The translations under genes and the position numbers were made by a program. From Mariannaea sp. PMI_226 (lineage: Eukaryota; Ascomycota; Sordariomycetes; Hypocreales; Nectriaceae): 64,000 nucleotides of DNA. The notes below the pieces were generated by a model, which was not told where the DNA came from, did not search any database, and worked only from the letters and a program-made list of their open reading frames with translations. The stretch spans positions 930,001 to 994,000 of the forward strand of contig JANFOG010000009.1 of the NCBI GenBank assembly GCA_024336345.1, given 5' to 3'. Shown piece by piece: positions 3,943 to 49,542 of the stretch; the first letter of the stretch is position 1; every line of letters begins with the position of its first letter.

Positions 3943-4431
3943 GTACCAGCGCGCACTCGTCTTTAGAGTGTATGATCTTCATTTGTCGATTATTTTAAAC
4001 GTCATTATCGGTCATTTCCTATCGGAGTTTTAATGCAGCTTTTTGTGCTGCCGGGTCAGCACACTCGCCGACTGATAAAGTCCAGGCACACGTTTGATGA
4101 AACAGCTACCCATGGAGGGTGATTACGTGTACATATATATCTATATATAAATAAATCTACCGAGTCTAGCTCAAACAGAGAGATTTCAAATGAGTATGGA
4201 GAATATGCCCAAGTTGTGACTGTAGCTATGCATTCAAGCAGTAGCAAGTACTAAGACTGAAAATCATGTGCCTACACAAACTCTGGAAATAATGAAGATG
4301 ACCTCGGCCATCATGCGCATGTAGCTTGACCGCGCCAAAGTCTTCACAATCTGTGGGAATTAGGCTCCAGGGCTGTTCATTACCCACATAGACTGCTCCC
4401 CGACTACTTCATTCATCAAGCGAACAAACAA
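3943..4431. other. Spacer between adenylate kinase and tRNA-Arg
   Basis: Probable 3' UTR of the kinase gene, then a short AT-rich TA tract near 4132-4155. No gene seen. Confidence 0.4.
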
Positions 4432-4503
4432 GGTCGCGTGGCCCAATGGCAAGGCGTCTGACTACGAATCAGGAGATTGTGGGTTCGATCCCCACCGTGA
4501 CCT
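4432..4503 (+). tRNA. tRNA-Arg (anticodon ACG)
   Basis: A complete cloverleaf without intron. The acceptor stem pairs GGTCGCG with CGTGACC with one G-T wobble. The A box region is TGGCCCAATGG and the B box is GGGTTCGATCCCC. The anticodon stem TCTGA/TCAGG holds the loop CTACGAA, giving anticodon ACG (read as ICG), which decodes CGU, CGC and CGA. A T5 run a few bases downstream serves as Pol III terminator. In contrast to the tRNA-Phe genes in this window, both the D-loop and anticodon loop are uninterrupted. Confidence 0.95.
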
Positions 4504-4507
4504 TCTC

Positions 4508-14565: not shown

Positions 14566-14696
14566 GCGGGTTTAGCTCAGTTGGGGTATGTCCAATAACT
14601 TCTAATTCACGCTTCGAGCACAATAACTAACCTTCACTGACAGAGAGCGTCAGACTGAAGATCTGAAGGTCATGTGTTCGATCCACATAAACCGCA
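14566..14696 (+). tRNA. tRNA-Phe (GAA), copy 1, with GT-AG intron in the D-loop
   Basis: Exon 1 is 14566-14585 and exon 2 is 14644-14696, giving 73 nt with anticodon GAA. The 5' part GCGGGTT pairs with AAACCGC except for G5 facing A68. The D-stem GCTC/GAGC, anticodon stem CAGA/TCTG and T-arm ATGTG/CACAT are intact, with the box A sequence TAGCTCAGTTGG and box B GTTCGATCC. The gene is interrupted after G20 by a 58-nt segment. Without it the D-loop reads AGTTGGGA, as in yeast tRNA-Phe. The anticodon loop CTGAAGA is continuous, so the usual 37/38 intron is absent. A T5 terminator follows at 14708. This is the only plus-strand member of a four-gene cluster. A standard tRNA scan would likely miss it or call it a pseudogene. 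Confidence 0.9.
14586..14643 (+). other. Spliceosomal-type intron inside tRNA-Phe copy 1
   Basis: 58 nt, donor GTATGT, branch CTAAC at 14627-14631, end GACAG. It contains no run of four T, so it would not stop Pol III. It lies between tRNA positions 20 and 21, not at the 37/38 site used by tRNA endonuclease. Confidence 0.8.
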
Positions 14697-14707
14697 ATCA
14701 ACTTATC

Positions 14708-14712
14708 TTTTT
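14708..14712 (+). terminator. Pol III terminator of tRNA-Phe copy 1
   Basis: T5 run 12 nt after the tRNA end. Confidence 0.7.
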
Positions 14713-15325
14713 GCCGTTTTAGACAATTATTCAACAGCAGGGAGTATTGTTGACATGTTTCTCTGTGCTCGTTCATGTCTGCTTGGATGAAGAGTTGCCT
14801 GGTTGCACTCCGGATGCAACCCAGGACCCTTGACTTTTTGGAGGTCGCACACTTGATGTTCATAGCAGTACGAAACAACCTCACGTACGATTTATATAAC
14901 ACGGGAATAATTTCCCCATCAAAACTATGCTAGGAGGCTTTGCTCTCAAGCTTCAAATCAGTCGCGCATATCTACATTGTTGCCTCCTTCTTTACTTGAT
15001 GGGGTTTTGAATATCTCTGAAATTGAGACACCAGGGGCTGGGTTTAGGCAAAAGTGCTTCTCGAGCATAAGTGAATATTGAGGTTCGAATTTGTGTGAAC
15101 ATCATTGGCCTCTCTATTCAAAAGATAGCGGGATTGTTTTGCATAACACCTTGCTCAACAGTCCTGCAATGGAATTGTGCCTTGTCGAGTAAGCAGCCCG
15201 CTCACAGGTACCTACCAAGGCAAAAAAGTCTCTCTCTAGCCTTATTGGTGGACAGGAACCAAGGCCCTGTACAGCTAAAGCGGTTACTTCATGAACATGA
15301 GAACATGACAATAGAATCAAGGAGC

Positions 15326-15330
15326 AAAAA
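15326..15330 (-). terminator. Pol III terminator of tRNA-Phe copy 2
   Basis: A5 on the plus strand, T5 on the transcript strand, about 10 nt after the tRNA end. Confidence 0.7.
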
Positions 15331-15339
15331 GATAGTGTT

Positions 15340-15468
15340 TGCGGTTTATGTGGATCGAACACATGACCTTCAGATCTTCAGTCTGACGCTCTCTGTAGAG
15401 ATGGTTAGACTTGTATGTGCTGGAGTTTTGAAAGTTATAGCAACTTACCCCAACTGAGCTAAACCCGC
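15340..15468 (-). tRNA. tRNA-Phe (GAA), copy 2, with GT-AG intron in the D-loop
   Basis: Exon 1 is 15468-15449 and exon 2 is 15392-15340. The spliced 73 nt are identical to copy 1, including the G5/A68 mismatch and anticodon GAA. The 56-nt insert is at the same place, after G20, and again starts with a strong donor (GTAAGT) and ends with a CTAAC branch and ACAG. Its internal sequence differs clearly from that of copy 1. The anticodon loop has no intron. Boxes A and B are intact but separated by the insert, a spacing Pol III factor TFIIIC is known to tolerate. Confidence 0.9.
15393..15448 (-). other. Spliceosomal-type intron inside tRNA-Phe copy 2
   Basis: 56 nt, donor GTAAGT, branch TCTAACC, end CTACAG. 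No T4 run on the transcript strand. The 3' half resembles the intron of copy 3. Confidence 0.8.
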
Positions 15469-15571
15469 TTGGTGACGTTCGATGCTGCGATTAGGCCCTA
15501 AGTCGACTCTGCGGACATGGGACCAGGAAAAAAAAGATGAAGCCCCCCAGCAGCTCTCAGAATGAACTTGC

Positions 15572-15576
15572 AAAAA
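15572..15576 (-). terminator. Pol III terminator of tRNA-Phe copy 3
   Basis: T5 on the transcript strand in a flank very similar to that of copy 2. Confidence 0.7.
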
Positions 15577-15585
15577 GATAGTATT

Positions 15586-15718
15586 TGCGGTTTATGTGGA
15601 TCGAACACATGACCTTCAGATCTTCAGTCTGACGCTCTCTAAGAGATTGGTTAGACTTTTGAATGGGCTGGAGTTTTACAAGTGTGTGAACAACTTACCC
15701 CAACTGAGCTAAACCCGC
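15586..15718 (-). tRNA. tRNA-Phe (GAA), copy 3, with GT-AG intron in the D-loop
   Basis: Exon 1 is 15718-15699 and exon 2 is 15638-15586. The spliced product is identical to the other copies. The insert is 60 nt, the longest of the four. Downstream sequence up to the terminator is close to that of copy 2, pointing to tandem duplication. The same orientation and a distance of about 120 bp suggest copies 2 and 3 arose from one another, yet the introns differ by several substitutions and small indels while the exons do not differ at all. Confidence 0.9.
15639..15698 (-). other. Spliceosomal-type intron inside tRNA-Phe copy 3
   Basis: 60 nt, donor GTAAGT, branch TCTAACC, end CTCTTAG (TAG acceptor). 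No T4 run on the transcript strand. Confidence 0.8.
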
Positions 15719-15807
15719 TTTGTTATGCCGCCGGCGTGGATCTTGCGTACATATTCCCCTCGTGTGGGACAGGTAGGATTTTGAAAAAAATTAAAGGCGA
15801 AACTCGC

Positions 15808-15813
15808 AAAAAA
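15808..15813 (-). terminator. Pol III terminator of tRNA-Phe copy 4
   Basis: T6 on the transcript strand about 12 nt after the tRNA end. Confidence 0.7.
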
Positions 15814-15824
15814 TAAGTCGCATA

Positions 15825-15953
15825 TGCGGTTTATGTGGATCGAACACATGACCTTCAGATCTTCAGTCTGACGCTCTCTGTCAGTGAAGGTTAGTTATTG
15901 TGCTGCAAGTGAGGAATTCGTTTGATAACATACCCCAACTGAGCTAAACCCGC
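15825..15953 (-). tRNA. tRNA-Phe (GAA), copy 4, with GT-AG intron in the D-loop
   Basis: Exon 1 is 15953-15934 and exon 2 is 15877-15825. The spliced product again equals the other three copies. The insert is 56 nt at the same position. Its donor and 3' half match copy 1, on the opposite strand 1.2 kb away, and not its neighbours copies 2 and 3. The anticodon loop is uninterrupted and boxes A and B are intact. Confidence 0.9.
15878..15933 (-). other. Spliceosomal-type intron inside tRNA-Phe copy 4
   Basis: 56 nt, donor GTATGT, branch AACTAAC, end CTGACAG. No T4 run on the transcript strand. The last 25 nt are identical to the copy 1 intron. Confidence 0.8.
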
Positions 15954-28068: not shown

Positions 28069-29856
28069 TCAAACATTGGCCGGTCTTTCTCCATTCCCTC
28101 CATGACTACCCGAACTAGCTGTTGAGCCAGTGTTGCCTCTTATGTCCTGCCAGGTTGCGCCGAATCGCCTCCCAGTAGAGGCCAACAGACTCTCCTCTTC
28201 GTCATTTTCAGCCTGCTCATCAATCTCGGAAAGATTTAATTTAGGGGCGCGGAAGATGGCCGTTATGAAAACAATGAGGAAGACGGCAAGGAATGCAAAT
28301 TGCGCCCAGAAATCGACAAGTCCGAAGAAAGGCCATGTGATAGTGATTCGGTTCAGAAAGGTCGACATCATCGATGGCGTGCACACATCTTTGGCATGAT
28401 CGTCCTTTAAAAGCTCAGAGCAAGGATGAACCAAGTCCTTGTGATCCCGGCAATCCGGTTGCGCCCCCGGGTAGGCTGGTTCATTTGAGCAGAATGTCTG
28501 AGTGCCATAGATAGAGTACTGTGGAGCAACCATCATGGCAATGCCGTAGTTCGTGGCCAGGATTATGAGACCAAGCATGACAGTGGCAATGAGCAGAGCC
28601 TGGGGCGCTGTTCGGCCCTTGCGGATTTGAAAGATGCGCACCCAGAGGAAGCGAATACCTACGGTCGCAACGCCCGAAATAGAGCTGCTGAAGAAGAACA
28701 AGACAAGGAGTGCCATAAGGATATAATCAATAGGGAACACTTTAGCCGTCTTGACAAATATGAAGTTGATGGGCTGGAAGATGTTGATGTGGCCCAGGAT
28801 ATAACCACATCGCTTTTTGCAGATAGAGTTCTTAGCCTTGTCAATGCCAGTGATAAGCATGGAGACCCAGATGAGAACAGAGAGGAGAAGTAGCAGAATG
28901 CCACCGAGCATCTTGATCGGTCGGAAGAAGGCGCAGAGCTTTAGCCAGAACTGATAAATCTTGCTCTTCCCCTCTCCTTGAGCTTCAGCCGCCAATCGTT
29001 CACGCCGGACCAAGGTTTGCTCTTCTCTCACCAATGCGTCCAACTCTCGGCGGTCTTTGCGTGACATGCCTTCTTGACGGCCTATATTGCGCAGCTCAAG
29101 TTGTCGCTGGCGTTCACGATTCTGTTCAAGTTGAGAGGCCGTCGTCGCAGAGAGTTGAGGTGCTGAAATTGAAGGTGCGGACTTGATGAAGGAAATGGGG
29201 AGGAGAGCAAGACCAGCACCAGTGTAAACGACATAGAGTAGGGTTCCGATCGTGACCAGAAGGCCGAGCGCAAACGTCAGTGCCTTTTCTCCATGGTTCT
29301 GAGCAATCAGCTTCTTGAAATAATCGAGGTCCCAGTGAGATCGAGTGCTGTCGCCAGCGGCTGGGACAAAGAAGCCTAGCAAGAAGAGTATAATGACGAA
29401 GGCCACGAAGAATAAAGTATATTTTGCAGCAGCCCAGAAACGACTGCTCAGTGAGCGACCCTCCTCAATCTCCACCTCATCGTACTCTTCGTGCCAGAAG
29501 TAGGCAAAAGGTATCACGACCAGACATAGCAATGCATCGAAGCTATAGAGACTGTAGTAAACGACTTTTAGGGTGAAAAGTATCTCGTCGATGCGCGCCG
29601 GGGTGGCCCATTCCTTTTTGGCGCCGAGAGTTGGAGAGCTAGTTGCGGAGACGAGTGCTATGTCGACAGGAAGGAGAAGAATCGTTGCAAGCAGAGAGGT
29701 CAAGCTGATAATGGCGACGATACTAATAATTGCCGAGCGTTCGCGTGGTGTTTGCCAAGTAAGAGTAGTAATGACGGCAGCGACTAAGCAGAGGGCAACA
29801 GCTACGCCATAAGCGACCCAGATTAGGCTGGTTTGGACGAGGCCTGCGCTAGCCAT
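28069..29856 (-). CDS. LMBR1-family membrane protein, putative lysosomal/vacuolar cobalamin transporter
   Basis: A single exon encodes 595 residues with about nine to ten membrane helices. The N-terminal helices (about 9-29, 43-63, 110-128, 145-165, 195-220) precede a charged, Arg/Glu-rich cytosolic loop at about 240-290 ([21 protein letters not shown]), with further helices from 310 to the C-terminal third and an acidic tail after 545. The layout and sequence match the LMBRD1 family, whose human member exports cobalamin from lysosomes. Fungal proteins are named by homology, although most fungi are not known to use cobalamin, so the transported molecule is uncertain. A Cys-containing lumenal loop near 460-500 is probably disulfide-linked. 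It is transcribed divergently from CFT1 with 835 bp between the start codons. Confidence 0.9.
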
Positions 29857-30691: not shown

Positions 30692-33600
30692 ATGCAAGCC
30701 TACACGGAGCTAGCGGCTCCCTCAGCCGTCTCTCACTCACTGAGCCTCCCTCTCACATCCGCGAGCGCCAGTAATCTTGTTGTGGCAAAGGGTTCGCTGC
30801 TTCAAATCTTTGCTACGCAGACAATTTCCGCCGAAATCGACGCTCAGAATAACCAGACTTCATCAGCCCCAAAAGCCGAACCTGATTTTGATTTTCGAGC
30901 CAACGATGATGACGGTCTTGAGGCCTCCTTCCTTGGAGGGGAGTCCATCTTGGTACGAACCGATCGGACAAATAATACCAAGCTCGTACTGGTGGCAGAA
31001 ATACCACTGGCTGGAACTGTAATAGGTCTGGCTAGACTCAAGACTAAGAAGACGAAATCAGGAGGGGATGCTCTGTTGCTGGCCTACAAGGCTGCGAAAA
31101 TGTGCCTTGCCGAGTGGAATCCGGAGAAGAACACGCTCGAGACCATATCAATACATTACTACGAGAAAGAGGAATTGCATGGCGCACCATGGGAGGTTCC
31201 TTTTGGTGAATACTTCAACTTCCTCGAGGCCGACCCTGGTAGCAGATGTGCTGCCTTCAAGTTTGGATCGCGCAATCTCGCCATTCTCCCATTCCGGCAA
31301 TCGGAAGAAGACTTGGAAATGGACGATTGGGACGAAGATCTTGACGGACCGAGGCCGGTCAAGGAACCTGCGGCAGTCGCCAATGGAGATAGCGACAGTC
31401 TAGAAGCAACATATACACCTTCTTTTGTCCTTCGTCTCCCAATGCTTGATCCCAGTCTGGTCCATCCTGTGCACCTCGCCTTTTTGCATGAGTACAGAGA
31501 GCCAACCTTTGGCATCCTCTCGTCCAGCCAATCGCCAGCTCACTCCCTAGGTCAGAAAGATCACCTTTCATACAAGGTTTTCACCCTGGACTTACAGCAG
31601 CGCGCCTCGACGGCCATTCTATCGGTCACTGGCTTGCCAAGGGACCTGTATCAAGTTATCGCGCTACCGTCACCTGTCGGAGGAGCTTTACTAGTCGGCC
31701 AGAACGAATTGATCCATGTTGATCAATCTGGAAAGGCCAATGGCGTCGCGGTCAACGCTATGGCGAAGCAAATGACTTCTTTCAGCTTGACAGATCAGGC
31801 TGATCTCGATCTTCGATTGGAAGGCTGTACTATTGGACAGCTTTACATAGAAAATGGGGAGCTTTTGTTGATTCTCAACGATGGGCAACTTGGAATCATA
31901 TCGTTCCGAATTGATGGCCGAACTGTATCCGGAATCAGTGTAAAACTGATTGCTACCGAAAATGGGGGCAGCCTCGTAAAAAGTAGAGCATCTTGCACCT
32001 CAAGACTAGGCAAGACGTCAATGTTTATCGGAAGTGAGGATGGAGACTCCATTGTCTTGGGTTGGTCCAGGAAACAAGGACAAGAAAAGCGCCGCAAGGC
32101 CCGAGTTGTTGATCTGGACTTAGGCCTAGATGTAGATGACTTGGATCTTGATGATGATGGCGAAGACGACGACGATCTCTACGGTACCGAGTCTACAACT
32201 ATTAAACCCTCACAAATTACAAATGGAGCGGGCAAATCCGGCGAGCTGAGCTTCCGCATTCATGATACCCTGCTTAGTATCGCCCCTATTCGAAATTTCA
32301 CCTCTGGCAAGGCATCTTTCCACCCTGACAGCGAGGAAGCAACTCTCTCGCAAGGTGTCACCGCTGATTTGCAACTTGCTTGTGCCGTCGGTCGCGGCAA
32401 AGCCAGCTCTCTTGCCATTATAAATCGAAATATCCAGCCAAAGATTATTGGGCGGTTTGAATTCCCCGAAGCTCGTGGTTTCTGGACCATGTCGGTCAAG
32501 AAACCTATTCCTAAGTCATTGGGCGCAAACGTTGCTGCTGACAGCGACTACGAGCCCTTTGGGCAGTATGACAAGTACATGATTGTGGCCAAGGTCGACC
32601 TCGACGGTTATGAGACGTCTGATGTCTACGCTCTTACGGCTGCAGGATTTGAAACACTGGGAGGCACAGAGTTTGACCCAGCAGCCGGTTTCACTGTCGA
32701 CGCCGGGACAATGGGGAAACAAATGAGGATTGTTCAGGTCCTCAAATCTGAAGTTCGGTCGTATGATGGAGGTAAGTCCCACTAAATATATGTATATATA
32801 TATATATGTATATATCGTACGGTCTGTTGCGGTGTAACTGATACTTTCTAGACCTTGGACTGACACAGATCTTGCCCATGCTGGACGAGGAGACTGGGGC
32901 AGAACCAAGAGTTGTGAGCTCAAGTATCGCTGATCCGTACTTGCTCCTCATTCGCGATGATTCCAGTGTCTTTATTGCTCAAATTGATGGCGACAACGAG
33001 CTTGAAGAAGTGGAAAAGACAGATAATGTTCTCCTGACCACCAAGTGGCAAGCTGGCTGTCTTTATACCGATACCAATGGCACGTTTCAAGCCAACTCGA
33101 GTATCAAGGGTAATAAGTTCGAGCCCAAGATAATGATGTTCTTGCTTAGCACCGCCGGTGCTCTTCATGTGAGTACTACATTACGGCAAGTAAAACATCA
33201 ACTAACAATCAGTAGATATATGCTTTGCCAGACCTCTCTAAGCCCGTCTACGTAGCCGAGGGCTTGTCTTATATTCCACCCTCCCTCTCTAGCGGCTACA
33301 CTCCCCGTCGAGGCATGGTCCGTGAAACTCTCCGCGAGATCATGGTCGCTGATTTGGGCGATTCTATCTCCCAGTCCCCCTACCTCATCGTACGTTTGAA
33401 GCTGTCCTTGTTCTCATCTTAACATACTAACCATGCTTTCCAGCTCCGCCACCCAACTGATGATCTCACCATCTACAAACCCGTGCGCTTCCAGCCTGAA
33501 GGAACGGAATCCTCGCTCAAAACATCCCTCTCCCTCCAAAAATGTACCAATCCAACCCTGGCGCAGACCCCCGTCGAGACGACAGGCGACGATACCGTTC

Positions 33601-35227
33601 AAGAATCACGCTTCGTTCCGCTACGAGCATGCGCCAACGTGAACGGTTACAGTACTGTTTTCCTTCCTGGCTCGTCCCCAAGCTTTGTCATCAAGTCCAG
33701 CAAAAGTATTCCCCGCGTCATTGGTCTACAAGGTCTCGGCGTGAGGGGTATGAGTCCTTTCCACACAGAGGGCTGTGAACGAGGTTTCATCTATGCAGAC
33801 ACTGATGGCATTGCCCGAGTCACTCAGCTGCCCCCAGACACAAACTTCACCGAGCTAGGTCTTTCAGTTAAGAAGGTACCTCTAGGTTGTGACGTCCGGG
33901 AGATCGCATACCACCACCCTACTGGAACGTACATCGCTGGTTGCATGACCTACGAGCCCTTTGAACTCCCACGCGATGACGATTACCACAAGGAATGGGC
34001 CAGGGAAACTATTTCCTTCCCACCAACTTTAGCCCGCGGTGTTCTCAACCTCATCAGTCCTATTAGCTGGACCATCATCCACCAATTCGATCTTGAATCA
34101 TGTGAATCCATTGAGTGTATGAAAACACTACACCTGGAAGTATCAGAGGACACGAAGGAGCGACGCATGCTCCTTGCCGTAGGCACAGCATTATCTAAGG
34201 GTGAAGACTTGCCTATTCGTGGCCGGGTGCATGTCCTTGACATCGTCACCGTCATTCCTGAACCTGGCAAGCCGGAGACAAACAAGCGTCTCAAGCCCAT
34301 CGCTCGCGAGGACATTCCCCGCGGCGGTGTCACCGCGCTCTCTGAGATCGGCTCGCAAGGTTTGATGCTCGTCGCACAGGGACAAAAATGCATGGTTCGA
34401 GGTCTCAAGGAGGACGGGTCTCTGCTACCCGTCGCGTTCCTCGATATGAGCTGCCACGTCTCAAACGCTCGAACACTGCCCAAGACGGGATTGTGCTTGA
34501 TGGCTGATGCCTTCAAGGGCGTGTGGTTTGCTGGCTACACGGAGGAGCCGTACACATTCAAGATCCTCGGTAAAAGCAACGGACAGCTGCCCTTGCTTGT
34601 GGCAGACTTCCTACCAGATGGTGATGATTTGGCAATTGTGGCCGCAGATACAGACGGTGAACTACATATTCTCGGCTTCAACCCCGAACGTAAGTTACTA
34701 TCGCCTTTTAATCCTCTTCACAATGTGCATATACTGACTCACATACAGATCCCAAATCCCTCCAAGGACACCTCCTACTCCATCGTACATCTTTCTCCGT
34801 AACCCCCAACGAACCGACATCAACCATGCTTCTTCCTCGCACCGTACCCCCAACTCACCCAACCCCGGACTCACCTCCTCACATCCTCCTCCTCGCCTCA
34901 CCTTCCGGCCACATCTCTTCCCTTGTGTCCCTCCCCGAGACCACCTACCGCCGTCTCCTGTCCGTCACCAACCAACTCCTTCCGCAACTCACCCCCCACG
35001 GCGGCCTCAACGCCAAAGCCCACCGCCTCGGCGAATCTCATCGCGCGGTGGGTGTGGAAACCGCCGCCGGCAGGGCCATTGTGGACGGCGCCGTGCTGGC
35101 GAGGTGGGCCGAGCTGGGAGCTGCGAAGCGTGCCGAGGTAGCAGGTAAAGTTGGATACGATGGTGTTTCAGAACTGAGAGAGGAGCTTCAAGCACTGCTG
35201 GGTTGGAGCGGACTGGCCTATTTCTGA
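30692..35227 (+). CDS. CFT1: Cleavage and polyadenylation factor subunit CFT1 (CPSF160)
   Basis: Five exons, 30692-32771, 32852-33168, 33216-33389, 33444-34689 and 34749-35227, give 1431 residues. Introns are 80, 47, 54 and 59 nt with GTAAGT, GTGAGT, GTACGT and GTAAGT donors. The protein is the large beta-propeller subunit of the nuclear pre-mRNA 3'-end machinery and helps recognise the poly(A) signal region. The start MQAYTELAAPSAVSHSLSLPLTS followed by ASNLVVAKGSLLQIF is the conserved N-terminus. The central acidic Asp-rich stretch (about 480-505) is typical of the family. The C-terminal half contains the CPSF_A region (SYLEL-type strands through LGFNPE), and the end GWSGLAYF is near the usual terminus. 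An upstream in-frame TTG is not used. TA repeats fill intron 1. The length fits the family (about 1350-1450). Confidence 0.95.
32785..32815. repeat. TA-rich microsatellite in CFT1 intron 1
   Basis: Imperfect TA/TG run inside the intron. Confidence 0.75.
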
Positions 35228-47735: not shown

Positions 47736-49542
47736 ATGAAGTCTGCAAGCAGGCTCTTCTATTTGTCCATCTTTGCCCTCTGGGCTGCGCCTGGTTCCTG
47801 CGCCAGCGATGATACAGAGCAATGTGGGGTACGTCACTCAGAACAGTCTTTCAAATCGGCTCATCGCTTCTCTCTGTTGCATTCTACCAGCTCTCTTGGT
47901 TTCTCCCATTTATTACATGATAAATCCACGTTCTAGTGTTTTTCCTCTTTTCTCTATACTAACAGCACATGCTTGAAAGATATCACCGGAATCCATCGTT
48001 GACGATGCTTGCGCTTCCTACGCTACCCTCGAACGCCTCAACACCGACGTCAAACCACATCTCGATCAACTTACTCGTACCACCGACTTCTTCTCCCACT
48101 ACCGATTGAATCTCTTCCATAAGAGCTGTCCCTTCTGGAACGACGAAAATGGCATGTGCGGGAACATTGGTTGTGCCGTCGAGACGCTCGACAATGAAGA
48201 GGACATTCCCCTAGTGTGGCGAGCACATGAACTGAGTAAACTTGAGGGCCCCCGAGCACAACATCCTGGCAAAAAGGCTCGCGTCAATTCCGCCAAGCCG
48301 CTCCAAGGAAAGCTCGGCGAGAATGTTGGCGAGAGCTGTGTCTTTGAATACGACGACGAGTGTGACGAACGAGACTATTGTGTGCCTGAAGACGAGAGCG
48401 CCGGCTCCAAGGGTGACTATGTGAGTCTCGTCAAGAACCCAGAGCGCTTTACAGGCTACGCGGGCTTCGGAGCCAAGCAGGTCTGGGACGCCATTTACAT
48501 GGAGAACTGTTTCCAGAAGAGTTCATTCCCAAAATCAGCAAACCTGGGCTCATCCCAGTGGAATCCTGGCCCCGCCGCCTTGGATTTCAAGGAGGTGATG
48601 GCTGCCGCCGGCCGACAAGCTCAACTCGAGCATGAGCGCCTTGAGACGCCTAATGCACCTTTCGTAGCCAATACTGGTTTCGAGGCTGAGGATGAGTGCA
48701 TTGAGAAGCGTGTGTTCTACCGAGTTATGTCCGGAATGCACGCCAGCATCAGCTCGCATTTGTGTTGGGATTTCCTGAACCAAACGACGGGTGAGTGGCA
48801 ACCTAATCTGGCTTGCTACGAACACCGCCTCCATAACTTCCCGGATCGCATTAGCAATGTGTACTTTAACTACGCCTTGCTCTCTCGCGCCGTGGCTAAG
48901 ATCGGACCTTACCTCAAGGACAGTGAAGTGTACAAATTCTGCACTGGCGATCCGGAGGAGGACAAGAACACACGAGACCAGGTGTTGCAGGTTACAGAGA
49001 GGGCTGCCAATATCCCTGAGATCTTCGACGAGGGAACTATGTTCAAGAACGGCGAGGGTCCATCCCTCAAGGAAGATTTCCGCAACCGATTTCGCAATGT
49101 CAGCCGCTTGATGGACTGTGTGGGTTGCGATAAGTGCCGTCTTTGGGGCAAGCTCCAGACATCAGGCTACGGCACTGCCCTCAAGGTCCTTTTTGAGTTT
49201 GATAATGCGGATGGCCAGGTCCCTGTGCTGAAGCGTACCGAGCTGGTGGCTCTCTTCAACACCTACGCTCGCATTAGCAGCTCTATGATGGCTATCGGCG
49301 AGTTCCGCAAGCAGATGCAGTCCAAGTTGGCCGCGGAGCAGGAAGCTGAGGAGATGGAGGCTTTGCCTAAGGCGGAGGAGACGGAGGAGCTAGATCCTGA
49401 CATGGTTGCCTTTATCAAGATGCAGAGAGAGGGACCATCGGGTGGTTCTGCGGCTGAGCGATTTGCCCACGAGATTGCTCGCTTTAGGCTGGCGACCAAG
49501 GTGATTGTGAAGGGCTGGATTCGTGGTCCCAAGGTCATGTAG
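47736..49542 (+). CDS. ERO1: ERO1 endoplasmic reticulum oxidoreductin
   Basis: Exons 47736-47828 and 47980-49542 give 551 residues. The 151-nt intron has donor GTACGT, a CTAAC branch and a GAAAG acceptor, and the join reads DTEQCG-ISPESIVDDAC. ERO1 is the FAD enzyme that oxidises protein disulfide isomerase and so drives disulfide formation in the ER lumen. A signal peptide covers about residues 1-22. The segment HYRLNLFHKSCPFWNDENGMCGN is strongly conserved. A CDERDYC pair lies in the shuttle-cysteine region near 160, and CVGCDKC at 411-417 is the catalytic C-x-x-C-x-x-C that contacts FAD. The C-terminal acidic and charged region after 475 contains a Glu-rich helix, and no HDEL is present. 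The length is typical of fungal members. Confidence 0.95.

Follow-up and report, generated by a model that had tools for sequence, protein, structure and literature searches.

Four interrupted phenylalanine tRNA genes

The window examined here, a 64-kb stretch of the genome of Mariannaea sp. PMI_226 (Nectriaceae, Hypocreales; contig C25, positions 930001-994000, in an assembly of 42.2 Mb and 25 contigs), contains four genes for phenylalanine transfer RNA (tRNA-Phe), labeled a to d, each of which is interrupted by an insert of 56 to 60 nucleotides (nt) between tRNA positions 20 and 21, as a first-pass annotation of this DNA had claimed. The inserts are very probably U2-type spliceosomal introns residing within genes of RNA polymerase III (Pol III). 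The genes and their parts are arranged as follows:

14566-14695, plus strand: tRNA-Phe gene a, whole, with an insert of 58 nt
14566-14585, plus strand: gene a, exon 1 (nt 1-20; contains the A box)
14586-14643, plus strand: gene a, insert of 58 nt, GTATGT...CTAAC...CAG
14627-14631, plus strand: gene a, branch-site motif CTAAC (putative branch A at 14630)
14644-14695, plus strand: gene a, exon 2 (nt 21-72; anticodon GAA, B box)
14708-14712, plus strand: gene a, T-run, likely Pol III terminator
15341-15468, minus strand: tRNA-Phe gene b, whole, with an insert of 56 nt
15449-15468, minus strand: gene b, exon 1
15393-15448, minus strand: gene b, insert of 56 nt, GTAAGT...CTAAC...CAG
15404-15408, minus strand: gene b, branch-site motif CTAAC
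15341-15392, minus strand: gene b, exon 2
15326-15330, minus strand: gene b, T-run
15587-15718, minus strand: tRNA-Phe gene c, whole, with an insert of 60 nt
15699-15718, minus strand: gene c, exon 1
15639-15698, minus strand: gene c, insert of 60 nt, GTAAGT...CTAAC...TAG
15650-15654, minus strand: gene c, branch-site motif CTAAC
15587-15638, minus strand: gene c, exon 2
15572-15576, minus strand: gene c, T-run
15826-15953, minus strand: tRNA-Phe gene d, whole, with an insert of 56 nt
15934-15953, minus strand: gene d, exon 1
15878-15933, minus strand: gene d, insert of 56 nt, GTATGT...CTAAC...CAG
15890-15894, minus strand: gene d, branch-site motif CTAAC
15826-15877, minus strand: gene d, exon 2
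15808-15813, minus strand: gene d, T-run

The signals attributed to these inserts in the first-pass annotation, a GTAAGT or GTATGT start, an internal CTAAC, and a terminal AG, were found in all four genes; the candidate branch A of the CTAAC motif lies 13 (a), 12 (b), 12 (c), and 13 (d) nt from the insert end. Its statement that removal of the insert leaves a common tRNA-Phe(GAA) holds as well, and excision from genes a to d yields one identical sequence of 72 nt plus the discriminator A, which ARAGORN folds as tRNA-Phe(GAA). The exact insert border is ambiguous by one base, because excision of GT...AG and of GG...CA results in the same tRNA. When the intact window was submitted to ARAGORN and to Rfam (at gathering score), none of the four tRNA-Phe genes was recovered, and the sole call was a tRNA-Arg at ~4431-4505. 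The rarity of the signal combination was gauged by scanning both strands for a GTANGT or GTANGA start, a CTAAC whose fourth base is located 12-13 nt from the end, and a YAG end; the full set occurred in 4 of the 767,310 window stretches of 55-60 nt, and these were the four tRNA-Phe inserts, although this pattern was designed after the inserts were known and does not amount to a blind test.

tRNA-Phe genes across the genome

A genome search with exon 2 of the tRNA-Phe identified eight places, and a pattern for the anticodon and T arms (allowing up to three mismatches) identified ten; beyond the eight already known, these comprised two places with a GCA anticodon, of which one overlaps a tRNA-Cys gene. 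The four tRNA-Phe genes outside the window are located at:

C6:439287, tRNA-Phe gene with its insert at the same nucleotide
C19:447763, tRNA-Phe gene with its insert at the same nucleotide
C19:2610544, tRNA-Phe gene with its insert at the same nucleotide
C20:282953, tRNA-Phe gene with its insert at the same nucleotide

All eight genes, distributed over four contigs, thus carry an insert of 55-60 nt at position 20/21. The donors are GTATGT (four inserts), GTAAGT (three), and GTAAGA (one); every insert contains CTAAC, the A of which lies 12-13 nt from the end; the acceptor is CAG in seven cases and TAG in one. The anticodon loop is unbroken throughout, with no intron at position 37/38; the A and B boxes are intact and both reside in the exons, and T-runs of 5-7 begin 10-13 nt past the last exon base in each gene. 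With a GAA cloverleaf, both boxes, T-runs, and conserved exons, the eight genes have the features expected of cytosolic tRNA-Phe genes. In all eight copies, the acceptor stem of the joined tRNA-Phe has a G-A mismatch at position 5-68 (in gene a, bases 14570 and 14691).

Intact tRNA-Phe genes elsewhere in the genome, which would have offered another source of the mature tRNA, did not come to light. A 30-base pattern that spans the A box through G37 without a break has zero matches in the genome assembly, even with three mismatches allowed; the same pattern would also catch a tRNA-Phe gene with only a 37/38 intron. No tRNA-Phe gene found in the assembly yields a usable tRNA without insert removal, with the reservation that a diverged or gap-located gene could escape such a search.

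Comparison with introns of messenger RNA genes

The inserts were compared to introns of messenger RNA (mRNA) genes in the same genome. The CFT1 gene in the window, mapped exactly with its deposited protein and therefore dependent on the depositor's gene model, contains four introns of 80, 47, 54, and 59 nt; their donors are, in order, GTAAGT, GTGAGT, GTACGT, and GTAAGT, and their branch motifs CTGAT, CTAAC, CTAAC, and CTGAC, with the A located 10, 10, 13, and 11 nt from the intron end. In the actin family, five gaps between matches correspond to introns of 67, 83, 61, 61, and 53 nt, all with CTAAC and the A 11-17 nt from the end; these introns were picked by their donor among two to five frame-consistent candidates per gap, which was not a blind choice. 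Taken together, the nine mRNA introns range from 47 to 83 nt, contain CTAAC (7/9) or CTGAT or CTGAC (2/9), and place the branch A 10-17 nt from the end. Among 2,022 introns of Fusarium, the reported median length is 57 nt, the donor consensus is GTAAGT, and CTRAY and YAG/R (slash at the splice junction) occur in 91% and 94%, respectively (PMC5677156). By their donor, CTRAY branch site, YAG acceptor, and length, the eight tRNA-Phe inserts would classify as U2-type introns, and on these sequence characters they are mid-range among the mRNA introns of this genome and of Fusarium. Intron finding in the window from open frames alone was also tried; it produced 86 candidates, was too noisy, and was dropped in favor of the CFT1 and actin mapping.

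CFT1, a cleavage and polyadenylation factor, is encoded at 30692-35225 (plus strand), and the next-best matches of its protein come from Thelonectria olida and other Hypocreales. Neighboring genes in the window are an ERO1-like gene at 48106-49542 (plus strand) and a probable LMBR1-type lysosomal cobalamin transporter gene at 28069-29856 (minus strand).

A U6 gene with a similar insert

Fungal U6, the small nuclear RNA (snRNA) transcribed by Pol III, is an established case of a Pol III RNA with introns (PMC10484740; PMC5832005). The first-pass annotation had invoked the intron of Schizosaccharomyces pombe U6 as an analogy, and this analogy can be extended to the genome under study, since the U6 gene detected here has a comparable insert. 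Among the best 47 of 2,720 first-look candidates that were scored, one U6 gene exceeded the Rfam cut-off:

L049 1441-1596 (contig C2): U6 gene, with an insert of 56 nt at L049 1473-1528 (C2:1227786-1227841)

Read by eye, the DNA consists of the stem-loop and GAAACGAT, followed by the 56-nt insert, followed by ACAGAGAAGATTAGC. The insert has the form GTTAGT...CTAAC...CAG, with the branch A 12 nt from its end, and it is positioned directly before ACAGAGA; joining of the flanks produces TTGAAACGATACAGAGAAGATTAGC, close to UUGgAACgAUACAGAGAAGAUUAGC in the Rfam consensus. Rfam aligns the 5' part of the U6 match to bases that are read here as insert. Given this GT...CTAAC...CAG insert, the genome seems to pass a second Pol III transcript, U6, through the spliceosome. 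The tRNA-Phe genes resemble the fungal U6 genes with mRNA-type introns, in S. pombe and others, as small Pol III genes with a GT/CTAAC/AG insert (PMC5832005); they differ in that the tRNA-Phe host has both Pol III boxes in its exons, whereas the B box of the U6 gene in this genome (GTTCGAATC) is found inside the insert.

Conservation and origin of the copies

In the alignment of the eight tRNA-Phe genes, mean pairwise identity amounts to 100% for both exons, for CTAAC, and for AG; it is 86% for the six donor positions, 68% for the stretch between CTAAC and AG, and 43% for the insert middle. Within this genome the copies are not decayed: their exons are identical, and the splice signals persist despite the divergence of the insert middles. 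The 60 nt upstream of the eight genes have a mean ungapped identity of 29% (maximum 47%), and the flanks of the genes are therefore unrelated. The inserts form two groups: five copies share the tail CTTCACTGAC and have GTATGT or GTAAGA donors, and three copies have the tail CATCTCTAC or CAATCTCTT and GTAAGT donors; the window genes include two from each group. Since the inserts fall into these two sequence groups, the eight copies represent paralogues, not independent gains, and a single insert position in a single tRNA (8/8) would be expected from the copying of an interrupted gene. When two of the eight inserts were used as genome queries, one matched itself and one other tRNA-Phe insert, and the second matched itself only.

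Proposed maturation and alternative explanations

The proposal of the first-pass annotation that the spliceosome matures these tRNAs is supported by the gene structure, by the splicing signals, by the failure to find an intact gene, and by the U6 parallel; the following course can be envisaged. Pol III would transcribe a precursor of ~140-150 nt in the nucleus; U1 would pair with GGG/GUAAGU (slash at the donor junction) or its variants and U2 with CUAAC; the spliceosome would ligate nt 20 to nt 21, still in the nucleus, with release of a lariat; and the joined RNA would then adopt the tRNA-Phe fold and proceed to ordinary end processing and CCA addition.

An identification of the inserts as anticodon-loop (37/38) tRNA introns was rejected on account of their location at 20/21 in all eight genes, but the tRNA splicing endonuclease could in principle act elsewhere, cutting a bulge-helix-bulge at 20/21 in the manner of ectopic D-arm introns, with tRNA ligase joining the exons and the GT, CTAAC, and AG motifs being incidental. 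Introns in the D arm of tRNAs are known in the red alga C. merolae (PMC9602550), and the Mariannaea genome has both the endonuclease family, in two places, and tRNA introns in the anticodon loop. The structure itself was sought as two 3-base bulges around a four-pair helix at both cuts, flanked by helices. Five of the eight copies would allow nt 15-18 to pair with the four nt before AG, through two Watson-Crick and two G-U pairs; of the remaining copies, two reach only three of the four pairs of this central helix and one reaches only two. In all eight copies, the flanking helices are poor, with zero to one of three pairs on the intron side and one of three on the exon side, and shifting both cuts by one base reduces the central helix to zero to two pairs. 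A bulge-helix-bulge conserved in the eight genes was therefore rejected after two boundary frames had been tried. Endonuclease cleavage would also leave unexplained why GTANG, CTAAC, and YAG are kept amid a diverging insert middle, and why the inserts resemble mRNA introns; as an account of the eight genes it is very unlikely.

In a second alternative, the eight genes would be dead or serve a special purpose, and the mature tRNA-Phe would come from an intact gene that is absent from the assembly. The assembly of 25 contigs might have gaps that harbor such a gene, but the eight copies on four contigs, with identical exons and boxes, T-runs, and conserved signals, give no sign of decay, and no intact stretch exists within three mismatches; this scenario appears highly improbable. 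The occurrence of several copies at scattered loci might also suggest self-splicing introns or small mobile elements without any link to the spliceosome. However, group I and group II introns are far longer than 55-60 nt; in the window, Rfam at gathering score returned no match except a tRNA; the two inserts queried against the genome led nowhere beyond tRNA-Phe inserts; and all eight inserts occupy one and the same nucleotide of the same tRNA, in keeping with the copying of an interrupted gene. This third explanation is scarcely credible.

As a caveat, several observations weigh against the interpretation of the inserts as spliceosomal introns, or limit its reach. The insert ends are partly paired with the exons in the predicted precursors, which could hinder splicing; the potential pairing, in five copies, of nt 15-18 with the nucleotides just ahead of AG is a weak trace of a bulge-helix-bulge; the eight copies are paralogous, so that their conservation cannot be counted eight times over, and the similarity of the exons and of the 3' insert ends may be maintained by gene conversion; finally, the assembly may miss a tRNA-Phe gene, and the searches scored the best candidates only.

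Other tRNA genes and search for relatives

Nine longer tRNA genes were read among the ARAGORN results, and anticodon-loop introns of 12-33 nt were found for Thr(TGT), Ala(TGC), Met(CAT), Ile(AAT), and Ser(TGA); none of them begins with GT. The tRNA-intron endonuclease family matches two places in the genome. The ordinary tRNA intron pathway is thus present, and the tRNA-Phe inserts would accordingly constitute a second intron class. The ARAGORN calls at L050, L054, L058, and L059 (Val, a near-twin of the Met gene at L055, Ile, and one called Ala) appear to be misplaced or ambiguous.

Patterns that combine the A box with GTANGT at three spacings returned 12, 3, and 7 matches, compared to 4, 4, and 5 in backward-read controls. 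Seven of these 22 matches, all among the 12, are tRNA-Phe genes, and the other 15 are not tRNA-like by eye. A restriction of the insert to tRNA-Phe is not established, because these patterns overlook GTAAGA donors (and hence the eighth tRNA-Phe gene) as well as inserts elsewhere in the tRNA, and because the tRNA survey scored the best 63 of 1,269 candidates, of which 50 were read. In viral contigs, two patterns had no match and a third had one match, a prokaryote-like tRNA-Phe by eye; in bacterial and archaeal genomes, 24 candidate stretches (23 with archaeal titles, one bacterial) were obtained.

A possible folding switch

The tail between CTAAC and AG (14632-14641 in gene a), which has the identical sequence CTTCACTGAC in five of the eight inserts, is complementary to parts of the anticodon arm. 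Precursor predictions give the native anticodon stem a probability of at most 0.04 in all eight copies, whereas 200 random introns that carry the same signals average 0.58, 33 of them below 0.1; the folding program is also weak on the mature tRNA, where it assigns the anticodon stem a value of 0.21. Shuffling the tail in the five CTTCACTGAC copies restores the predicted stem to ~0.6, with only 1-3 of 100 shuffles equally low; for the remaining three copies, equally low values arose in 12, 13, and 25 of 100 tail shuffles, and the tail has little predicted effect. Since the five CTTCACTGAC tails are identical, they count as one observation, not five. When the insert middle was shuffled, the native precursors had the lower predicted energies in 8/8 cases (z of -0.3 to -2.6), a result that is too weak and too dependent to build on.

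These folding predictions hint that the intron prevents the tRNA fold from forming before its excision. A more far-reaching model, in which the spliceosome makes all cytosolic tRNA-Phe and the 3' part of the intron pairs with the anticodon arm and blocks folding, modification, or export before splicing, is speculative and, on balance, unlikely to hold in full. If it did, the ability of the cell to decode Phe codons would be tied to its splicing capacity, with the intron-bearing U6 in the same loop.

Relation to known introns and implications

In the textbook view, the machinery for mRNA splicing is not used for tRNA. A 2026 review likewise describes tRNA splicing as proceeding without the spliceosome (PMC13149111), and a paper from 2017 states that, among small structured RNAs, frequent interruption by introns is known for U3 and U6 alone (PMC5832005). 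The tRNA-Phe inserts resemble the introns of the fungal U3 small nucleolar RNA in that both are of the canonical spliceosomal kind and interrupt a small RNA that is structured and non-coding (PMC5832005), with the difference that U3 is not a tRNA. With the endonuclease-removed anticodon-loop introns they share the location in a nuclear tRNA gene, but they differ in their position at 20/21, their length of 55-60 nt, and their GT-CTAAC-AG signals. Introns in the D arm of tRNAs have been described in red algae, cryptophyte nucleomorphs, and archaea (PMC9602550, PMC4090602, PMC8450103), and the inserts resemble them in their location; in contrast to the archaeal D-arm introns, for which a bulge-helix-bulge has been modeled (PMC8450103), the tRNA-Phe inserts have spliceosomal signals and lack a conserved structure of this kind. 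For the shortest nucleomorph D-arm introns, a 2014 review gives the mode of splicing as unknown (PMC4090602). The available sections of two papers on nucleomorph genomes rich in small spliceosomal introns mention none in tRNA genes.

The first-pass annotation knew of no fungal report of tRNA maturation by the spliceosome, which agrees with the literature search, in which the accessible portions of open-licence papers contained no precedent in fungi and no report of a spliceosomal intron in any tRNA gene. The inserts would therefore represent a known intron type in a gene class for which no earlier report was found. ARAGORN and Rfam miss the four genes of the window, and therefore further cases may hide in annotated fungal genomes.

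After its splicing in the cytoplasm, yeast tRNA-Phe has to re-enter the nucleus, where wybutosine formation begins (PMC4090602); in Mariannaea, such a return would be needless if the spliceosome acts on this tRNA in the nucleus. The tRNA splicing endonuclease would be unneeded for tRNA-Phe, because none of the eight genes has a 37/38 intron, and the entire cytosolic supply of this tRNA would hang on splicing, because no uninterrupted gene was found. If the interpretation of the inserts as spliceosomal introns is correct, a Pol III RNA whose first exon measures 20 nt, plus a short leader, can serve as a substrate of the spliceosome, and a tRNA family can exchange one type of intron for another; spliceosomal introns in every detected gene of an essential tRNA would break the rule that tRNAs are matured without the spliceosome.

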